Virus record (IMG/VR): IMGVR_UViG_3300047388_000210
Coordinates: 1 to 26,941 of that record
Length of the DNA stretch: 26,941 bases
Source of the DNA: a virus
Strand: one strand, 5' to 3'
The notes under the pieces are model-generated. The model saw only the letters and a program-made list of their open reading frames with translations. It ran no database searches and had not been told where the DNA came from. This document shows, piece by piece, positions 8,979 to 22,206 of this stretch (within the stretch, counting starts at the first letter, position 1; every line of letters starts with the position of its first letter). The translations under genes and the position numbers were made by a program.

Positions 8979-9551
8979 GTGGAGTACCCGTCCGCCCACA
9001 AGGGCTCCTACCGTGCCAGGCGGCCGAACTCCACCAACCGCCGCACCCGCGCCCAGATCGACAAGGACCACCGCGCCCTGGACCTGTACTGCCAGGGGAA
9101 GAAGAACCGGGAGATCGCCGCGATCATCGGCTGGAAGTCCGACTCCACCGCGATCATGGCCGTCCAGCGGGCGCTGCGGGACCGGCGCGCGGGCGAACTG
9201 GACGCGATCGACAACTTCGCCCTCGCCACCGAGCGGATCCAGCAGGACATCGCCGAACAGCAGAAGATCATCGACACCCCCCACTTCGTGGTGTCCACGA
9301 CCGGCAAACTGGTCATGGACCCGGAGACCGGGGAGCCGATGCTGGACGACGGGCCCAAGGCACGGGCCCTCGACGCCAAAATGAAGCTGTACGACCAGCT
9401 CAACAAGCTCCAGGGCAACTACGCGCCGGCGAAGGTCCGGCAGGAGATCATCGAGCAGTCCACGGTGGACGCCGAGATCGCCCACCTCGCCGAGGAAGTG
9501 AACCGGCTTGCCCAGGAAACCCCTGGTCCAGGCGTCATCCGGGAGCCTTAG
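8979..9551 (+). CDS. Terminase small subunit-like protein
   Basis: A 190-aa protein from the GTG at 8979 with AAGGAG at 8967-8972. Residues about 25-70 (RALDLYCQGKKNREIAAIIG, then a second helix with AVQRALRDRRAG) form an HTH like those of small terminase subunits that recognise the packaging site. A helical oligomerisation region follows. Near the C-terminus, ALDAKMKLYDQLNKLQGNYA resembles the typical xRRxKLLGLxAP segment of these proteins. It lies directly before the large subunit and overlaps it by 44 nt, which supports the call. Confidence 0.75.
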   Translation: MEYPSAHKGSYRARRPNSTNRRTRAQIDKDHRALDLYCQGKKNREIAAIIGWKSDSTAIMAVQRALRDRRAGELDAIDNFALATERIQQDIAEQQKIIDTPHFVVSTTGKLVMDPETGEPMLDDGPKARALDAKMKLYDQLNKLQGNYAPAKVRQEIIEQSTVDAEIAHLAEEVNRLAQETPGPGVIREP

Positions 9552-11211
9552 GGCCCTCACCGAACTCCGGGCGCAGCGGGACGCGCTCGAGGCGCGGAAA
9601 CTCGCCAGCCTGGACGTGTTCGCGCTGATCGGGCATGAGCCGAACTGCCTGCCCCGGCACGCGGCCCGCAAGCGCGTCATGGCCACGCTGGGCGTCACCG
9701 ACATACACGACGCGCGCCTCGCGGAGCCCGGCGTGCTCCCCGGGTTCTGCGGGAAATGCCCGCAAGAGCAATTCCACAACGCCACCGAGGCCGATGTGCT
9801 TTACGGCGGGGCCTCCGGCGGCGGTAAGTCGCACGCCATCACCGCTGAGGGCATCAAGTGGTGCGCCAGGTACCCTGGCCTGCGCGTTCTTCTCGTCAGG
9901 AAGTCTTACGACGAGCTTGAGGAGTCCATTTTCCCCGCGCTGCGGAAGTTCGGTTACGCGCAGGCGCTGGGGTGCAAGTGGAACGGCGTCAAGAACGAGT
10001 TGCGGTTCCCCAACGGGTCCTACTTCCGGTTCCGGTACCTGGAGACCGTGGACGACGCGGCCCGCCGGCAAGGCGGCGAGTACCAGTTGCTCCTGGTGGA
10101 CGAGCTGGCGCTGATGATGCCCGGCGTGGTGGACATCCTGCGCTACGAGCGGCTCCGGTCCGCCGGCGGGCTGCCGGTCATCGGGGTGCGGGCCACCTCC
10201 AACCCCGGCGGCCCCGACCACGGCGGCGTCAAGAAACGGTACGTCGAAGCCACCGAGGACGGCACGAAAGTCGCCACCGACGAGCACGGCCTCACGGTGC
10301 GGTTCATCAAGGCGCGGGCGACCGACAACCCGTGGCTTGACCCGATGCAGCGCAAGCGCCTGGACGCCATCCCCGACCCCAACCGGCGCGCGGCGATGCG
10401 CGACGGCGACTGGGGGACCTTCTCCGGTGCGGTGTTCCCGCAGTTCAGCAAGGAACGGCACACCCTGGACCCGTTCCGGCTGCCGCAGTCGTGGCTGCGG
10501 CACGCCGGGGTGGACTGGGGCTACACGGCCCCGTGGGCCACGTTGTGGCTGGCCCTGGACGAGGACAAGCGGGCCTGGATCTACCGGGAGCTTTACCACC
10601 GGCAGGTCGGCGAGGCCGACCAGGCGAGGATGATCCTGGAAGCCGGGGACGGCGAAAGCGTGGTCTGCTACTGGGCGGATGACGCGATGTTTGCCGTCCG
10701 GGGAGACGCGAAGCCGATCAGCTCCATCTACGCGGAGAACGGCGTCCACCTGACCGCGGCGGGCAAGGGGCCTGGGTCGCGGATCACGGGCCTGCAGCGC
10801 TGGCACTCCTACATGGCCGAAGGGCCGGCCTGCCCGCACCACCGCTCTCTGGGCTGGCAAACCTGCCCGATGGTGCATATCTTCAGCACTTGCCGCAACC
10901 TGATCTCCGAACTGGAGTCGCTGCCCTACGCCACCAAGGGCAACACGGAAGACGCGGACACAAACGCCCCGGACCACGCCTATGACGCGGGAAGGTACAT
11001 CCTTCTCAACCTGGACGGCGGCGCGACGTTCTACGACTCCCCGGATCCGGGCCTCCCTCTCGGCGCCCCGGCCCCGCTGGCCCCCATGGGCCGGTTCGCG
11101 ATCCAGGAGGACGTGGCGGAAGCGCCGCAGCGGGCAGCAGGCAGTGAGCCGAACCCCCGGCAGGGCGCTACGCAGACGTGGGAGGAAGCGCTCGCGTCGA
11201 TGCAGGGCTAG
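9508..11211 (+). CDS. terL: Terminase large subunit
   Basis: A 567-aa protein, the usual size for TerL. The ATPase half has a Walker A-type GGASGGGKS (residues 100-108, K107), Walker B LLLVDE (D198, E199) and a coupling motif ATSNPGG (about 230). The nuclease half shows the RNase H-like acidic residues D336 (GVDWGY), D391/D392 (WADDAM) and D489/D493 (APDHAYDAGRY). It pumps DNA through the portal and cuts it. The TTG at 9508 lies 9 nt after GAGGAAG. No ATG or GTG close to it competes. The last 60 residues are Pro/Ala-rich and probably flexible. Confidence 0.93.
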   Translation: MPRKPLVQASSGSLRALTELRAQRDALEARKLASLDVFALIGHEPNCLPRHAARKRVMATLGVTDIHDARLAEPGVLPGFCGKCPQEQFHNATEADVLYGGASGGGKSHAITAEGIKWCARYPGLRVLLVRKSYDELEESIFPALRKFGYAQALGCKWNGVKNELRFPNGSYFRFRYLETVDDAARRQGGEYQLLLVDELALMMPGVVDILRYERLRSAGGLPVIGVRATSNPGGPDHGGVKKRYVEATEDGTKVATDEHGLTVRFIKARATDNPWLDPMQRKRLDAIPDPNRRAAMRDGDWGTFSGAVFPQFSKERHTLDPFRLPQSWLRHAGVDWGYTAPWATLWLALDEDKRAWIYRELYHRQVGEADQARMILEAGDGESVVCYWADDAMFAVRGDAKPISSIYAENGVHLTAAGKGPGSRITGLQRWHSYMAEGPACPHHRSLGWQTCPMVHIFSTCRNLISELESLPYATKGNTEDADTNAPDHAYDAGRYILLNLDGGATFYDSPDPGLPLGAPAPLAPMGRFAIQEDVAEAPQRAAGSEPNPRQGATQTWEEALASMQG

Positions 11212-11353: not shown

Positions 11354-13693
11354 GTGCCCCTCGCTGATTACCTCCCGTGGAATGTGGCGGAGGCGAAGAA
11401 GCGCAAGCAGGCACCATCAACAGCGCTGGTCCCCGCGACGACTGCCCCGAACCCGGACATCCTGCCGAACCGGACGGGGTTCGTGCAGGGCGTCCCCCGC
11501 GGCGGGTTCGGGGTGGATGCCGCCGAGTCGCAGACCGGCGCGGCGCAGAACACCACCCGGACCGAGTGGCTGCAGGCGCTGTGGGAGGAGTACCTGCGGT
11601 GCCCGTGGGCGTGGGCGTGCGTGAACGTGATCGCAAGGACGGTCACCGCCGGCGGGCTGGGGATGAAGTGGGACGGCGACACCGGCGAGGGCGATGTCAA
11701 GCAGCCCGTCAAGCCCGCCGCGGTGCTGGCGGTGGAGCGGCTGTTCGCCTTCGCCAACCCGGTGCAGGACATCCGCCAGTTGTGCCGCAACATCGTCGCC
11801 GACCTGCAGGTGTTCGGCGGGGCGATGGTGGAGGTCGTGTGGTTCGCCGGAATCCCGGCGGCGCTGTACAACCAGGACTTCCCGACGACCGTCCCGGAGG
11901 CGGACGAGCACGGCAACGTCAAGGGGTACAAGCAGACCACCGAAGACGGCCGCACCGCCAAGTTCCGGGCCGAGCAGATCATCCACATCACCCTCGACTC
12001 CGCCCGGCCGTCCATTTTCGGCATCTCCCCGACCCACGCGGCCGAGGAAAGCATCGTCGCGTGGATGTTCCTGCACGCCTGCGAGAAGGAAGCGGCGAGG
12101 AGGGGCCTGCCGCCGAACATCCACGCGGACCACCCGGCCGGCACCCCCGAAACCGACGTGCAAAGGTGGCAGAACCAGTACGCCACCCGCAACATCGGCC
12201 CGGCGAACATCGGCACGCCGATCGTCACCAAGGGCGGCGGGCATGTCAGCGAACTCCAGCAGACGAAGCTCCCTGACATCCTGCTGGCGAAGAAAGAGGC
12301 CCGCAACGAGATCGTCTCCTCCTACGGTGTCCCGCCGGCGAAGGTGGGGATCATCGAGTCGGGGAACCTCGGCGGCGGCACCGGGAGTGACCAGAACAAG
12401 TCGTTCTGGCTGGACATCATCGCCCCGTCCGCCGCCCTGATCGCCGAGAAACTCCAGTTCGCTATCGCGGTCAAAGGCTTCGGCGTCACCGGCTGGCATG
12501 TCGATTTCGGCGGCGTCGACTACCGCGACGACCAGACCATTGAGAACATCCGCGACATGCGGATGCGCAACGGGTCCTGGACCCGCAACCGGTATGCCGC
12601 CGACATCGGGGAGCCGCCGGTTGAGGGCGGCGACGACGCGGTCCTGGTCGCCCGGCAGGACATCGTGCTGTGGGCGGACATGAAAGCCCGGTCGGCTGCC
12701 TCGGTCGCCGCGCTGGCCCGGCTGGACGCCGTCGACAACCAGGCCGGTGGGCCGCCCCCTGCGGCAGGGACCGGCCGGCCGTCAGGAACCGGCGGGGCAC
12801 GCGATCCCCAGCCGCCGTCCGAGTCCGCAGCCGTCGCCGAGGCGGTGGTGCTGCGGCTGGTGCGCTCCGGCGTGCTCGAGGCCAGGGGCGGCGCGAAGCG
12901 TGCCGCGTACCGGGCGCTCAGGAGTGACTTCCCGCCGGGCGCCGTCGCCTGGGCGAAGGACGCTGACTGGTCCGGGCCGGCGAAAGTGCCGGTGTCCCGA
13001 ATCGACACCTCCAATAAGCAGAACTGGGCCGCCTGGGGCGATGACGCGAACATCAGCCACTTCCGCAAGCAGGTCCGCAAGGGGACGGTGAACCCGGTCA
13101 CGCTGGTCAGGCGGCCGGGCGTCAAGAAACTGCTGATCCCGGACGGGCATCACCGGCTGCTGGCCGCGATGGAGGAAGGCGAGCCGGTCCTCGCCTACAT
13201 CGCCACCGTGGGCACCGTCAAAGGCCCGTGGGACGCGATGCACCGGGCGCAGAGGGCCGGGCCCTCTGAGGCTGCGGAGGCCGTGGCCGAGCACACAGCG
13301 AAGCTGACCGCCCGGCAGCGGGCCTACAACCAGCTCGCCCGCAACTTCGCCGCGAAAGACCTGACCTGGGTGGACGACGCCACCTGGACCGGCCCGGTGA
13401 ACGTCGGCACCGATCAGATCGACTTCGCCGACAAGGACCAGTGGAACGCGCAGGACGACCGGGCGAAGGTGGCCCGGATCAGGAAGCGGATCCGGAAGAC
13501 GGGCGCGATGAAGCCCGCCATCCTCATCCGGGGCCCCGGACATGAGAAGGACGTCATCGCCGACGGCCATCATCATGTCCTCGCCGCGGTCGAGCTTGGG
13601 TTCCCGGTGCGGGCGTACGTGGCCCATGTGAACTCGGCGACGGGCCCCTGGACGACCTTGTCAACCAGGCAGCGCATGGCCCGCGCAGGCTGA
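11354..13693 (+). CDS. HK97-type portal protein with two C-terminal ParB-like domains
   Basis: A 779-aa protein; HK97-type portals are usually 400-500 aa. Residues about 60-480 resemble such a portal: a WACVNVIARTVTAGG helix, a RAEQIIHITLDSARPSIFG strand-loop, and a KKEARNEIVSSYGVPPAKVG segment with a Gly-rich loop after it. After a Pro/Gly linker (about 480-510) come two tandem copies of one domain, about 515-640 and 660-775. Each has W-x-GP, a central IRKG/VRKG-like segment, an R-x-PG turn, and a DGHH motif (D597-GHHR and D737-GHHH, exactly 140 residues apart). This matches the ParB/sulfiredoxin-like domain seen in phage and polymorphic-toxin proteins. In the second copy His replaces the usual Arg. 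Confidence 0.85.
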   Translation: MPLADYLPWNVAEAKKRKQAPSTALVPATTAPNPDILPNRTGFVQGVPRGGFGVDAAESQTGAAQNTTRTEWLQALWEEYLRCPWAWACVNVIARTVTAGGLGMKWDGDTGEGDVKQPVKPAAVLAVERLFAFANPVQDIRQLCRNIVADLQVFGGAMVEVVWFAGIPAALYNQDFPTTVPEADEHGNVKGYKQTTEDGRTAKFRAEQIIHITLDSARPSIFGISPTHAAEESIVAWMFLHACEKEAARRGLPPNIHADHPAGTPETDVQRWQNQYATRNIGPANIGTPIVTKGGGHVSELQQTKLPDILLAKKEARNEIVSSYGVPPAKVGIIESGNLGGGTGSDQNKSFWLDIIAPSAALIAEKLQFAIAVKGFGVTGWHVDFGGVDYRDDQTIENIRDMRMRNGSWTRNRYAADIGEPPVEGGDDAVLVARQDIVLWADMKARSAASVAALARLDAVDNQAGGPPPAAGTGRPSGTGGARDPQPPSESAAVAEAVVLRLVRSGVLEARGGAKRAAYRALRSDFPPGAVAWAKDADWSGPAKVPVSRIDTSNKQNWAAWGDDANISHFRKQVRKGTVNPVTLVRRPGVKKLLIPDGHHRLLAAMEEGEPVLAYIATVGTVKGPWDAMHRAQRAGPSEAAEAVAEHTAKLTARQRAYNQLARNFAAKDLTWVDDATWTGPVNVGTDQIDFADKDQWNAQDDRAKVARIRKRIRKTGAMKPAILIRGPGHEKDVIADGHHHVLAAVELGFPVRAYVAHVNSATGPWTTLSTRQRMARAG

Positions 13694-13726
13694 AGCCGCC
13701 AGCGGGGCCGCCTGAGCGGAGGTGCC

Positions 13727-14104
13727 GTGGCCAAGCGCCCCGCCGTCCGCTGGCTCAAAGCCCCCGACGCCCATGACTTCGGCGCGGCGCTCGATTACCT
13801 GTCGCTGATCATGCCGTCCCAGGACGCGGAGAAGTACGCGAAGCTCCTGGAGCAGTCCCGGCATTCCCTGGTCACCCGGAAGGCCAAGGACATCCTCCGG
13901 GCCTCCGGCCTGCCCCTGCTGCCGAAGTCCAACCCGCACGTCGCCAAAGACCTCGCCAGGATCACCAAGGGCGTGAAACTGTCCCCGGTGCTGCTGGTGC
14001 GGGGCAACTGGAACCGGCCCCTGACCATCGCTGACGGATACCACCGGGTCATCGCGTGCGAGCTTTGGGACGAGAACACCCCGATCGCCTGTGTCCTAAT
14101 TTAG
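13727..14104 (+). CDS. Stand-alone ParB-like domain protein
   Basis: A 125-aa protein from the GTG at 13727 behind GGAGGT. Its C-terminal half, LSPVLLVRG, then LTIADGYHRVIAC and DENTPIACVLI, follows the same pattern as the two portal-fused domains, with D103-GYHR in place of DGHHR. Its N-terminal half (ALDYLSLIMPSQDAEKYAKL and following helix) is different and helical. It lies 33 bp after the portal gene, so all three copies are probably made together. A virion component or a nucleic-acid-processing enzyme are both possible. Confidence 0.7.
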   Translation: MAKRPAVRWLKAPDAHDFGAALDYLSLIMPSQDAEKYAKLLEQSRHSLVTRKAKDILRASGLPLLPKSNPHVAKDLARITKGVKLSPVLLVRGNWNRPLTIADGYHRVIACELWDENTPIACVLI

Positions 14105-15362: not shown

Positions 15363-17273
15363 GTGGCTAAGGCGATAGCGCACATCACCGGCACCGCCCT
15401 GCGGCCCGGGGTGTCCAGGAACAACCGCTGGTACACCAAAGAAACCATCGCCAAGGCGGTCGCGCGGGCGCAGGAGCGCATCGCCGGCGGCGAGAAGCCC
15501 ATGGTGATGCTGACCGTCCACCCGGACGGCCCGATCGACGCCGCCGGAATCTCCGCCTCGCTGACCGGCATGTCCCTGGACGAGGCCGGCAACGCCCGTT
15601 TCACCGCCGCCATCGCTGACACGGCGGCGGGCCGGGACATGGCCGCCCTCGCCGACACCAGCGACGGCCAGGTGCCGCACCTGAGGAACGTGAGCATCCG
15701 GGGCAACTGGCTCGGCATCGTCCGCAAGGTCAGGGGCCCCGAAGGGGGCATTGTCGAGACCGGCAGCGACCTGGAACTGGACGGCCTGGAGTTCACCCCG
15801 GCACCTGGGGTGCAGGGCGCGCAGATCGACACGTTCGCCTGGGCTGGCAGCGACGGCCAGACGGAAACCGACGAGCGGGTGCTCATCGCGGAGAGCGTGG
15901 AGGCTGCCGTGACGTTCACCGAAACGGCCGGGGATGGGCAGGAGGGCACGCCTGACGGGCCACCGGACGGCGTGCGTGAGGCGCTGGCCCTATTCGTCGG
16001 CGCCCCGCTCACCGAGGCGGACAGCGCCACGCCGGCCATCTCCAAGCGCGGATCCGGGACGACCGGTGGCGGCCGGGTGTGGGCCGACCCCGGCTACCAG
16101 GCGGACAAGAAGCAGCGGTACGACATCACCACCAAAGCCAAAGCGCTCACCGGGTGGCGGTACATCAACCAAGCCAGCAAGGCGTCCAAGTACAACTCCG
16201 CTCAACTGAAGCGGATCAAGGGCCGCATCCGGGCTGCCCTGGCGAAGTTCGGCGTGAAGGCCGCTGCCAGCACCGAGTCCGCCGCCGGGTGGGTATTCGA
16301 TGCCCCCTGCCAGGTTCCCGAGGCACTCACCGACGCGGTCGCCGAATGGTACGGCGGCGACCCGGCCCACGCCGGCTCCTGGAGTGTCAGCGCCTCCAAC
16401 GGCCCGGTCAACCTGAACATGTCGTCCTACAGCATGGACCCCGCCGACCTGGACGTGATCCTCCGCGCCGCCGCCGCTGCTGCCTGTGACGCGCTCAAGG
16501 CCCTCGACCCGGACATGGGCGGCGACGTCGACGTGCCCGGCGTAGGAAGCAACTCGGACACCGACGGCGACGCTGACGCTTTCTTCGGCAAGCCCGAGTC
16601 CGCGCCGGACGATGACGCCGCCGTCGCTGAAAACGCCCCCGCCACCGAAACAGCCCAGCCCGAGGAGGGCGGGGAAACCCCGGCGCCAGCCGGGCCAACC
16701 GAAAGCGAGGACTCCGGCATGGAGACCACCGCAACGACCACGGAGGCTGGCGCGGGCGCACCGGCTGGCCTGACCCCGGACATGCTCAGGGCCATCAGCG
16801 AGGCGACCGCAGCCACGGTCACCGCCGCGTTCGAGGCCCGCGACAAGGCCAAGGACGACGCCAAGAAGGCGCGCAAGGACGCCGAGGCGCGTGAGGCCGC
16901 CGAAACCGCCGCGCGCAAGACGGCGCTCACCGAGGCGCTCGCCGAACTGGGCATCAAGCCCCCGGCCACGGAGACCGCCCCCGCGCAGACCCCTCCCGCC
17001 GAGGGCACTGCGGCTGTCACCGAGACCGTGGACGAGCAGGTGGAACGGCGCGTCGGCGAGGCGATCACCGAGTTCAAGCAGCAACTGCTCGCTTCCGGCG
17101 CGATCCTCCCGGCCCGCGCGGGCCTGGTGGTCCGCGAGCACGCCGTCCCCGAGGACGCCGAGCCCACCGGCGAGGAACTCCGCGGCAAGAGCGACGACGA
17201 CCTGATGAACTACCTCGGCGGCGCGATGGCGCAGGTGGCGGACGCGCACCGCCCGGTCGGCGCCGGTTCCTGA
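15363..17273 (+). CDS. Prohead protease with embedded basic domain and scaffold
   Basis: A 636-aa protein. Residues 1-160 look like a herpesvirus-assemblin-type maturation protease, with a probable catalytic His53 in LTVHPDG and Ser111 in LRNVSIRGNW. Residues about 249-299 (KKQRYDITTKAKALTGW, then SAQLKRIKGRIRAALAKFG) resemble the DUF6582-like domain found in other actinophage head proteases. A long acidic, Pro/Glu/Thr-rich linker (about 390-460) leads to a coiled coil (about 488-530) of scaffold type and a short conserved-looking C-terminus. It directly precedes the capsid gene. The scaffold would be cut out on maturation. Confidence 0.8.
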   Translation: MAKAIAHITGTALRPGVSRNNRWYTKETIAKAVARAQERIAGGEKPMVMLTVHPDGPIDAAGISASLTGMSLDEAGNARFTAAIADTAAGRDMAALADTSDGQVPHLRNVSIRGNWLGIVRKVRGPEGGIVETGSDLELDGLEFTPAPGVQGAQIDTFAWAGSDGQTETDERVLIAESVEAAVTFTETAGDGQEGTPDGPPDGVREALALFVGAPLTEADSATPAISKRGSGTTGGGRVWADPGYQADKKQRYDITTKAKALTGWRYINQASKASKYNSAQLKRIKGRIRAALAKFGVKAAASTESAAGWVFDAPCQVPEALTDAVAEWYGGDPAHAGSWSVSASNGPVNLNMSSYSMDPADLDVILRAAAAAACDALKALDPDMGGDVDVPGVGSNSDTDGDADAFFGKPESAPDDDAAVAENAPATETAQPEEGGETPAPAGPTESEDSGMETTATTTEAGAGAPAGLTPDMLRAISEATAATVTAAFEARDKAKDDAKKARKDAEAREAAETAARKTALTEALAELGIKPPATETAPAQTPPAEGTAAVTETVDEQVERRVGEAITEFKQQLLASGAILPARAGLVVREHAVPEDAEPTGEELRGKSDDDLMNYLGGAMAQVADAHRPVGAGS

Positions 17274-17443: not shown

Positions 17444-18826
17444 ATGCCTTTCAGCCAGGTTCGTGAAGCACTCACGGCACTCGGCGCCTCGCCATTCGTC
17501 CAAAAGGTCATTGACCCTACTCTGGTCGAATTGCAGCGCCGTTACATGCCCGTTCTGCGTGCAATTCCGACGCAAAGATGGACAACGGATATTTACAATT
17601 TCAACCAAAGGACAACCGTTCCTAGTGGCGGCTACGTCCCCGACGGTGGAGCGCGCACTGTGGCGAATAGCGCCTATGTGCAGCTCTCATTCCAGATGAA
17701 ACACATTCAGACCGTCGGCGCGGTCACCGGCTACGCGCAGGAGGTCGCCAACCTGGTTGACCTGCGGCGCACTGAAATCGCGGGTGCCACCCAGGGGTAT
17801 TATTGGGATGCCGAATGCGGCATCATGTGGGGCAACTCCGCGTCCACGCTGAACCAAGCGCAACCACAATTCGATGGCTTGGACACGCTGGTCAGCGACT
17901 TCACCACCGGCTACAAGAACTGCATCGACTTCACCAACTCGACGCTGACCCCCGGCATGCTCGACCAAATCGCGGACGTCGTGCAGAAGAACGCCAAGGA
18001 GCCGGTGTTCAACTCCCAGTGGATGTGGATCATGTCCACCACGGCGCATTCCCGCCTGGCGCAGCTCACCTCCCCCGGCTACGGCGGCCTGCAGCGGTTC
18101 AGCAACCAGGTCGAGGTCGACGCCGGCCTGATCGTGGACACCTACCGCAACATCCCGATCCTGGACACCTCGTTCCTGTCCGCGTTCGGCTTCTCGATGG
18201 GCGCGGTGACCACGGGCACCGCGACGACCGGCGGCACCCTGGCCAACGCCACCTACTGGTACCGGATCGCGCCCGTGGTGTCCCGCGCCGGAGAGGCCAC
18301 CGCATCCACCGAAGTGTCCCAGGTCGCGGGCGGGTCCAGCACGTCCACGATCACCCTGTCGTTCACCCCGCCCACCGGGTACGACGCCCTCGCCCCCCAG
18401 TTGTACAAGGTCTACCGGTCCACCTCCACCGGCACCGAGACGTTCCTCGGCTACGTGGACTCCACCGTCGGCCTGAGTTCCGATGGCGTGACCCCGATCC
18501 TGACCACGTCCATCATCGACACCGGGTCGGCCCTGGTGCCGCAGAACGGCTCCACGGTGCCCGCCACCCTGCCCACCGCCTACTTCGGCACCAACGCCTC
18601 CATGCTGCCCCCGGCGGCCGGGAGCGAGAACATCTACCTCATCTCCCGCAACCGGCGCAACGTGGTCCGGCCGTATGTCCGCGAAGCGAACATGCTGAAC
18701 GTCTATCCCACCACGTCCAGCCCCGACGCACTTCCGTTTGCGATCATGGGTGACACCTGCTTCGCCGTGAGGGCCAGCAGGTTCGTCGGCCGCGGATGCA
18801 GGATGGCTGTCGCGCTGGTCAACTGA
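17444..18826 (+). CDS. Major capsid protein with Ig/FnIII-like insertion
   Basis: A 460-aa protein from the ATG at 17444, behind GAGAGGAGG with a rather long 11-nt spacer. The N-terminal arm, the FQMKHIQTVGAVTGYAQEVANL segment and the end of the protein (ALPFAIMGDTCFAVRASRF) fit an HK97-fold capsid protein. Between residues about 251 and 373 there is an extra domain, GTLANATYWYRIAPVVSRAG to YKVYRSTSTG and GYVDST, which reads as a fibronectin-III/Ig-like module, probably displayed on the capsid surface. The first part of the gene is notably poorer in GC than the rest (17521-17640: 62 of 120 bases). Confidence 0.8.
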   Translation: MPFSQVREALTALGASPFVQKVIDPTLVELQRRYMPVLRAIPTQRWTTDIYNFNQRTTVPSGGYVPDGGARTVANSAYVQLSFQMKHIQTVGAVTGYAQEVANLVDLRRTEIAGATQGYYWDAECGIMWGNSASTLNQAQPQFDGLDTLVSDFTTGYKNCIDFTNSTLTPGMLDQIADVVQKNAKEPVFNSQWMWIMSTTAHSRLAQLTSPGYGGLQRFSNQVEVDAGLIVDTYRNIPILDTSFLSAFGFSMGAVTTGTATTGGTLANATYWYRIAPVVSRAGEATASTEVSQVAGGSSTSTITLSFTPPTGYDALAPQLYKVYRSTSTGTETFLGYVDSTVGLSSDGVTPILTTSIIDTGSALVPQNGSTVPATLPTAYFGTNASMLPPAAGSENIYLISRNRRNVVRPYVREANMLNVYPTTSSPDALPFAIMGDTCFAVRASRFVGRGCRMAVALVN

Positions 18827-20483: not shown

Positions 20484-20689
20484 GCACCCGCTGCCCGCGC
20501 TGCCTGGATGACGGCATCGTCTGCGAAGAGCACCCCGAATATCCGTGGGACATGACGGTCGAAGGTCACCCGGCCGACTGCGGGCCACCCGGCATACCGT
20601 GCCCAGCGTGCTGCTCGCCGATCCCGGAAGACGGCACGCATTCCATTGCTGAGGCGTTCACGCCGGACTGGCAGCGGGCGCGGGCGTGA
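20480..20689 (+). CDS. Zinc-ribbon small phage protein
   Basis: A 69-aa protein from the ATGA overlap at 20480. CPRCLDDGIVCEEHPEYPW and a later CGPPGIPCPACC give the CxxC...CxxH...C...CxxC pattern of a small protein common in tailed phages. It probably binds one or two zinc ions. Function is unknown. A secreted-enzyme gene follows immediately. Confidence 0.65.
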   Translation: MSTRCPRCLDDGIVCEEHPEYPWDMTVEGHPADCGPPGIPCPACCSPIPEDGTHSIAEAFTPDWQRARA

Positions 20690-20715
20690 GCACCGCTGAC
20701 AAGGAAGGGACGCCC

Positions 20716-22206
20716 ATGAGGCATCAGTTCAAGGCCCTTGTCGTGGCCGCCGCCGCCGTTGCGGCCCTCTCCCTGCTCGCCGTCCCCGCGATGGCAGGTT
20801 CCCCCGCGCACCAGCACGCGCTCTCCAACGGCAGCGCGCCGCTGACCCCCACCTCCGGACTCGTCGGCCTCAAGGACCCCGTGTACACGGTGACGAACGC
20901 TGCAGGTGGCGGCGATGCACTCACCGTCGCCGGCGCGAGGAGCCTGTTCGTCAACAGCGGGGCTAACGTCATCAGCTACGGCGCACCCGACTGCTTCACG
21001 GGCAACACGTGCGGTGACCCGCAGACTAGCTCTTGTGCTACGAATGCGGCCACTGGCTGTCACAACGGGACGGTCAGCCAGGCCAACTTCGAGACACAGC
21101 TTGGGACCATCCTTAAAAGCAGCGCCAACAGCGGCCTGGGGGACCCGAGTATCGTTCTCCAGTTGTTCCCCGTCAATTTCAGCAACGGGACGTGCCCTCC
21201 CGGCACCGCTACGATCTGTGGTTCCAGCTTCTGCCCGACGCTCACCACTCAAGGTGCCGCGAGCCCGTCTTCCACGGAGTGGGGCCTGGACCTGGCGGCG
21301 GACAAGACGATCGTGGACTCGCTCGCTGCCGCGGTGAGCACGACTGGGGTGTCGCCGGCGTACGTGTTCTTGGAGTCGTCCAACGAGGGCGAGAACCAGT
21401 GCTGGTCCAAGTGGGGCTACACCAGCACGGTGCAGACTGGAGTGTCCAAGGCCCTCGGGCACATGTATGCGGCGGTGATGACGGGCACTGGCGGGCTCCT
21501 CACCTATGCCGCTAACGCCCTGCCCGGCTCCGGCGTTGCCGCTGACGGGTACATCGGCACCGCCGGCGGCATCCTCCGGGGCGATTCGTGCGTGACCAAC
21601 GTCAACTTCAGCTACGGCTACAAGTGCACTTTCACCAAGGCGTCTGCGCAGGTGGCCGACTTCAACAACGCGATCAAGACCGACGCAGGCAGCTCTGCGT
21701 ACCCCGGCCTGGAATCCATCCACTCCTACTGCCACAGCCCCGACTTCACCACGACGTCCGGCTACACGCTCGACAACAACGAGTGCTACGCCTACTACAA
21801 CCAGTGGCGGACAATGGCGGCGGGCCAGATCAACACCATCTGGGGTTCCACCGCGGTGAGCCTGATGGGCTTCGGCGTAACCGAGTGGCAGGCCGGGGTG
21901 TGCGGCTCCACCAACGCCACCTGCTGGAGCGGCTTCCAGAACGGCGCGAGCAACGGCACGGCCACGTACGACAGCGGCTTCTGGACAATGCTCACCGGCA
22001 ACAGCACCTTTTTCGGCACCACGGGCACGGCATACTTCCTCCAGGTGCAGTTCGATGATGCCGGGAACGCTGACGGCCAGGGTCTTCCTGGCGCGCCAGA
22101 CAACAACGCGCACCCCTCAGGCAACTACAACGTGATCCAGGAGGCCGGAACAAAGGGGGAGGGTTACACGGCCTTCTGCAATGCCGGAGCAGGAACTGGC
22201 TGCTAG
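20716..22206 (+). CDS. Secreted glycoside-hydrolase-like protein (clan GH-A pattern)
   Basis: A 496-aa protein read from the ATG at 20716 behind AAGGAAGGGA; a GTG at 20686 is the alternative. Residues 1-27 are a clear Sec signal peptide: basic MRHQFK, a hydrophobic stretch of Ala/Val/Leu, and AMA as cleavage site. The mature part has 16 Cys, likely disulfide-bonded. VFLESSNEGE with N223-E224 and GFGVTEWQ with E390 fit the acid/base and nucleophile of TIM-barrel GH-A glycosidases, and IHSYCH lies between them. A substrate cannot be read. An exported enzyme is unusual among connector and tail genes. Confidence 0.6.
   Translation: MRHQFKALVVAAAAVAALSLLAVPAMAGSPAHQHALSNGSAPLTPTSGLVGLKDPVYTVTNAAGGGDALTVAGARSLFVNSGANVISYGAPDCFTGNTCGDPQTSSCATNAATGCHNGTVSQANFETQLGTILKSSANSGLGDPSIVLQLFPVNFSNGTCPPGTATICGSSFCPTLTTQGAASPSSTEWGLDLAADKTIVDSLAAAVSTTGVSPAYVFLESSNEGENQCWSKWGYTSTVQTGVSKALGHMYAAVMTGTGGLLTYAANALPGSGVAADGYIGTAGGILRGDSCVTNVNFSYGYKCTFTKASAQVADFNNAIKTDAGSSAYPGLESIHSYCHSPDFTTTSGYTLDNNECYAYYNQWRTMAAGQINTIWGSTAVSLMGFGVTEWQAGVCGSTNATCWSGFQNGASNGTATYDSGFWTMLTGNSTFFGTTGTAYFLQVQFDDAGNADGQGLPGAPDNNAHPSGNYNVIQEAGTKGEGYTAFCNAGAGTGC

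Follow-up and report, generated by a model that had tools for sequence, protein, structure and literature searches.

Tandem ParB/sulfiredoxin-fold domains on a phage portal protein represent a module attached to at least four unrelated portal types

The portal gene of the virus analyzed here encodes two tandem domains of the ParB/sulfiredoxin (Srx) superfamily C-terminal to its portal core, and in environmental phages portals of four or more unrelated kinds bear the same domain. The window, i.e., the whole stretch of DNA that was analyzed, is a 26,941-base IMG/VR virus contig with a head gene block on the plus strand, which comprises the large terminase subunit (9508..11211; phrog_2, E=9e-34), the portal (11354..13693; 779 aa, GTG start), a head maturation protease that contains DUF6582 (15363..17273; phrog_207, E=4.3e-8; PF20223) and the major capsid protein (17444..18826; phrog_752, E=5.9e-31). 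Among the structural genes there is also a 506-aa protein (20686-22206) with a signal-peptide-like N-terminus and no Pfam match. The repeated capture of the domain across unrelated portal families, which the original prediction made from this DNA did not foresee, is the stronger finding. The explanation that we prefer, to which we would give about an even chance, is that the domains constitute a head-loaded, nucleotide-dependent enzyme module with SerK/Srx-like chemistry that would act at the start of infection.

The portal core spans approximately residues 1-490 (11354..12823, plus strand), with a match to PF04860 (Phage_portal) at residues 85-378 (E=7.6e-23). A Pro/Gly/Ala-rich stretch at about residues 464-486 lies upstream of a linker of approximately residues 491-512 (12824..12889, plus strand), which leads into domain A (residues 513-635; 12890..13258, plus strand), delineated by the family HMM, AlphaFold and Foldseek; domain B follows at residues 650-775 (13301..13678, plus strand). 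The DGHHR motif of A (D597-R601; 13142..13156, plus strand), which aligns with the DGHHR of SerK, and the DGHHH motif of B (D737-H741; 13562..13576, plus strand), with His in place of Arg, are 140 residues apart, just as originally described. The claim that the extension consists of two copies of one domain is likewise upheld: A and B are 42% identical over 122 aa (E=4e-35), with an alignment score of 264 as against a mean of 29 (sd 5, maximum 55) in 500 shuffles, and their DNA identity is just 55%. The PF04860 core and both domains reside in a single ORF (11354-13693) devoid of internal stops, and GC3 is 0.91-0.92 in the core, domain A and domain B alike. An assembly error at about position 12800 can be rejected as the source of this fusion, because the same C-terminal fusion occurs in 15 other window-like portals on other contigs and because GC3 is uniform.

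The AlphaFold model of domain A (pLDDT 91.7, pTM 0.85), computed from an alignment of A and B with 12 environmental relatives (14 members), recovers the ParB-like PadC (6ryk) as its best Foldseek match (E=6.1e-4). Next come plant sulfiredoxin, KorB, human Srx, Noc and ParB, with SbnI and SerK lower down and Srx at E=1.2e-3 (6ky4: TM 0.65 by target); these matches have probabilities of about 1.0 and modest E-values. From its identity to A, domain B is expected to share the fold. The domain profile retrieved SerK (5x0e, E=3.9e-6) as the top match among PDB chains, with ParB (7bnk, 4.9e-4), SbnI (1.6e-3) and Noc (3.7e-3) further down; 9 of the 14 members are also recognized by the SerK model in NCBIfam. 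The Pfam ParBc model PF02195 does not match the window portal even up to E=1, and Pfam, PHROGs and NCBIfam hold no clear model for the extension, its nearest PHROGs match being phrog_1033 'ParB-like' (E=1.9e-7). The fold and profile matches thus confirm ParB/Srx membership, as had been predicted, with a leaning to the SerK/Srx side.

Comparison with the known systems shows both the kinship and the distinctness of these domains. SerK, an ADP-dependent free serine kinase, is closest by profile, with SbnI also among the nearest solved relatives, and its DGHHR is identical in domain A, whereas domain B has DGHHH; however, SerK has about 242 aa as against about 125 aa in the domain, and the match covers just SerK residues ~12-83, so that the second lobe is absent. 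With sulfiredoxin, domain A has in common the fold and an H-R pair after a glycine, but the catalytic Cys of that enzyme is missing in the family, the position being occupied by H in 78 of 81 non-redundant domains and otherwise by N or Y. Phage P1 DdrB, the precedent of head-borne ParB domains to which the original prediction appealed, is likewise a head/late-gene protein with a domain of this superfamily, but it has a different motif, the window portal carries no metallopeptidase, and the A/B profile does not match P1 DdrB above noise (best hmmsearch domain score -4.2 bits; DdrB lacks DGHHR), so A and B are not of the DdrB-like family. Given the lack of a DdrB-like match, of the Srx Cys and of a full-length SerK architecture, we would class A and B as a separate ParB/Srx family associated with portals. 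Its own features are an N-terminal helix, a W..DA.W.GP motif and a GPW...H..Q end. P581, D597, G598 and H600 (the second H) are invariant in 81/81 domains; R601 is kept in 74/81 and the complete DGHHR in 70/81; and residue 563 is E in 42, D in 26 and Q in 10 (78/81), with the alignment of SerK Glu30 at this position uncertain by about one residue. In combination, these conserved residues resemble a catalytic site that would bind a nucleotide.

A profile-guided scan of IMG/VR yielded 239 confirmed stretches, the best 80 of which were fetched and supplemented with 19 further loci; once duplicates sharing the same final 300 residues had been removed, 80 ORFs remained for classification. Within this set, 62 are portals: 44 of the PF04860 type (16 of them compact and window-like), 6 of PF06381 (Phage_portal_3), 5 of PF06074 (Portal_Mu), 3 of the phrog_145/DUF4055 type and 4 assigned only by their position after the large terminase gene, these counts including close relatives and hence not representing independent events. 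The domain lies C-terminal to the portal core in 62/62, and among the portals found that of the window alone has two copies. Another 11 of the 80 ORFs are separate proteins of at most 300 aa, some of them near head or tail genes and three directly downstream of the portal (L052, L097, L099), while in L100 the domain is found in a larger gene that begins at the portal stop codon. Two Mu-I-type head proteases (L045, L065) bear the domain at their N-terminus, and that of L045 has its own tandem pair, DGHHR then DGHHH. The latter pair (L045:4596-7868), with its motifs ordered as in the window, appears to have arisen independently, and the two copies are sisters in the tree (95/87). As a separate observation, DUF6582 (PF20223) is found in the window protease (15363-17273) and in both domain-bearing proteases (L045:4596-7868, L065:4800-8093), and hence both modules may be carried together on head proteins.

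Companion domains in 45 scanned proteins include Nudix (8), MuF (7), 2H (4) and ADP-ribosyltransferase (1). Earlier surveys describe portal or MuF proteins joined to PBECR, 2H, Nudix or ART domains and predict that these are loaded into the head and injected as effectors (PMC5512222, PMC9503650). The window protein resembles such polyvalent portals in joining a recognizable portal core to further globular domains in one ORF, but differs from the published ones in having two ParB/Srx copies and no other recognized effector. A ParB/Srx domain on portals is absent from the passages of those two papers considered here, and no ParB/Srx-portal fusion was found in the open-licence papers searched. 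A recent survey of the ParB-CTPase fold (PNAS 2025; PMC12704722) gives a wide overview of the fold, in which phage fusions and NTP binding have their place; it relied on PF02195 together with TIGR/KOFAM models, and the word 'portal' does not occur in its text. Since the window domains miss PF02195, that survey may have missed the A/B family. Several of the loci have further peculiarities: one portal gene with the ParB/Srx domain carries a LAGLIDADG intein in the middle of its core (L018:3040-6855); a 2,505-aa portal polypeptide combines portal, MuF, Nudix and ParB/Srx regions (L016:964-8478), with a C-terminal region that is ADP-ribosyltransferase-like by eye; and one phage contig encodes both a DNA polymerase III gamma/tau-like ORF with an apparent intein (L015:371-2551) and a separate 264-aa ParB/Srx protein (L015:5902-6693).

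The His-bearing form of the motif is a recurrent one. The Arg-to-His change in B, in which the original prediction saw a possible sign of specialization, is not an isolated divergence: DGHHH is present in seven non-redundant domains, including those of the single-copy portals L013, L048 and L085. A domain tree of 81 sequences, built on few columns and with rough support, puts B together with the DGHHH domains of L048, L013 and L085, and puts A together with the DGHHR domains of L053, L081, L087, L098, L109 and L110. The portal-core tree recovers two pairs of sisters, the window with L013 (100/100), whose only domain is of the DGHHH form, and L110 (DGHHR) with L085 (DGHHH). The two trees suggest that domains have been exchanged between portal cores, and domain A was probably added in the window lineage or lost in that of L013. 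An in-window tandem duplication, the alternative to acquisition of A from a DGHHR portal, would make A and B a clade, which the AU test does not reject (p=0.24), and neither does it reject a single origin of DGHHH (p=0.09); parsimony requires three R-to-H changes. The seven occurrences, the three changes and the conservation of the other motif residues disfavor decay, and a stable subtype is the favored interpretation of DGHHH.

The gene 33 bp downstream of the portal presents a different picture. Its 125-aa product (13727..14104, plus strand), with a DGYHR motif at D103-R107 (14033..14047, plus strand), is confidently modeled by AlphaFold (pLDDT 96.0) and has Noc, SerK, KorB and Srx as best Foldseek matches (probability 0.87-0.97, E 0.04-0.12); against the portal domains, hhalign aligns 47 columns (probability 97%, E=3e-10). 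It had been taken for a third copy of the portal domain: its motif, position and superfamily are as claimed, but it belongs to another family borne by mobile elements, with just the catalytic core in common with A and B. It is a clear member, with 41-55% identity to plasmid and phage relatives, of an unnamed family of ~120-aa proteins whose hallmarks are W...PE.HDYPAA, KAKDI.RAS and ADGYHR. Its relatives are hypothetical orphans on plasmids of Rhodococcus, Xanthomonas, Pseudomonas, Caballeronia and Klebsiella, along with scattered phage genes. The portal seeds used found no portal at the viral loci of this family; at one of them (L022) a jumbo-type portal lies upstream. No stable neighbor was evident in the three plasmid contexts examined. 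The link of the gene to the portal is adjacency alone, and its placement is therefore probably incidental; its product is best seen as an accessory member of the superfamily.

Turning to function, the proposal of a head-loaded enzyme builds on where the carriers would place the domain. Portal crowns point into the capsid, where they meet packaged DNA (PMC10359639). In the window phage the C-terminus of the portal core would lead to the crown, toward the interior, which makes the original placement of the extension inside the capsid plausible; with 12 subunits bearing two domains each, about 24 copies would thus sit in the head beside the packaged DNA. Portal C-termini and head proteases would both be carriers that put a fused domain inside the head, and by riding on a structural protein the domain would be loaded into the head. 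The module might then perform phosphotransfer or NTP hydrolysis early in infection, acting at entry like the Nudix, 2H and ADP-ribosyltransferase domains found on the same polypeptides in its relatives. Portals normally remain in the virion, and therefore delivery would require cleavage or ejection; release might be effected by the head protease, though no cleavage site was identified. Against an enzyme count the missing second lobe of SerK, the absent Cys of Srx and the lack of the Arg in B.

The main rival to the head-loaded enzyme is a resident role at the crown, where the domains would form an NTP- or DNA-binding clamp, sensor or gate for packaging or retention in the style of the ParB-CTP switch, and would never be delivered. 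The strong preference for portals (62/80) across unrelated families speaks for it, as do the contact of the crown with packaged DNA (PMC10359639) and the capacity of ParB-fold proteins to act as NTP-switched DNA clamps that bind CTP, ATP or GTP (PMC12704722). However, most portals do without the domain, which therefore is not required for packaging; it is present on head proteases too, and in stand-alone proteins encoded close to head or tail genes; Nudix, 2H and ART domains are found on the same polypeptides; and an HTH, a dimerization domain and the canonical ParB motif are all absent. We consider a resident role possible, though less likely than the head-loaded enzyme. The same access to DNA in the head interior would suit a ParB-like nuclease that nicks host or rival DNA after delivery, and nuclease activity has been reported for some domains of the superfamily, with the DdrB-like ones proposed to be NTP-regulated DNases (PMC5512222). 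Yet nuclease claims for the superfamily are disputed (PMC3482391); the closest relative by sequence, long called ParB and credited with nuclease activity in its Pyrococcus homolog, has been identified as a serine kinase (PMC5120207); and 24 nucleases in contact with the packaged genome would put the phage itself at risk. We accordingly regard a nuclease as quite improbable.

The recurrence of the R-to-H form with the rest of the motif conserved would also fit binding without full catalysis, in which case the domains might sequester a nucleotide or signaling molecule, or just bind host proteins, with tandem copies raising the capacity of such a decoy. Its chances appear slim, as 70 of the 81 domains keep the full DGHHR and nearly all have an acidic or amide residue at position 563, as one would expect of a catalytic site. 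That the domains represent a ParABS partition protein fused to the portal or misplaced beside it, as the PHROGs label of their match ('ParB-like partition protein') might suggest, is barely credible, for they reside in structural proteins, the portal has no HTH or C-terminal dimerization domain by Pfam, NCBIfam or PHROGs, and no ParA was recognized among the window genes scanned.

No match to the family was obtained by tblastn with three domain queries in 50,697 phage records or with one domain query in 72,556 plasmids; two pattern scans of 84,980 prokaryote genomes returned chance-like candidates and no relative; and single-protein scans of viral contigs found nothing. Diverged members may escape a pattern scan, so that the lack of prophage hits is a provisional result; should it hold, it would point to rarely cultured, non-lysogenizing phages as the carriers. 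A family that is common in environmental phages, with none found in isolates, plasmids or, by pattern, genomes, points to a blind spot.

An extended form of the head-loaded enzyme proposal, which we consider unlikely as a whole, would see the portal as an enzyme ring: 12 to 24 SerK/Srx-type phosphotransferase domains on the inner crown, with differing roles for the Arg-type and His-type copies, acquired time and again by portals of unrelated families, in phages that are uncultivated and probably non-lysogenic, and countering nucleotide-based host defenses as the DNA enters. The DGHHR/DGHHH pair of the window portal offers a built-in catalytic comparison. In broader terms, a probable nucleotide enzyme would join the list of head-loaded phage effectors, in the form of a swappable module that recurs across at least four unrelated portal families and for which Pfam, PHROGs and NCBIfam lack a dedicated model. 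This convergence across portal families indicates a real selective use for the module at the interface of the head and its DNA.
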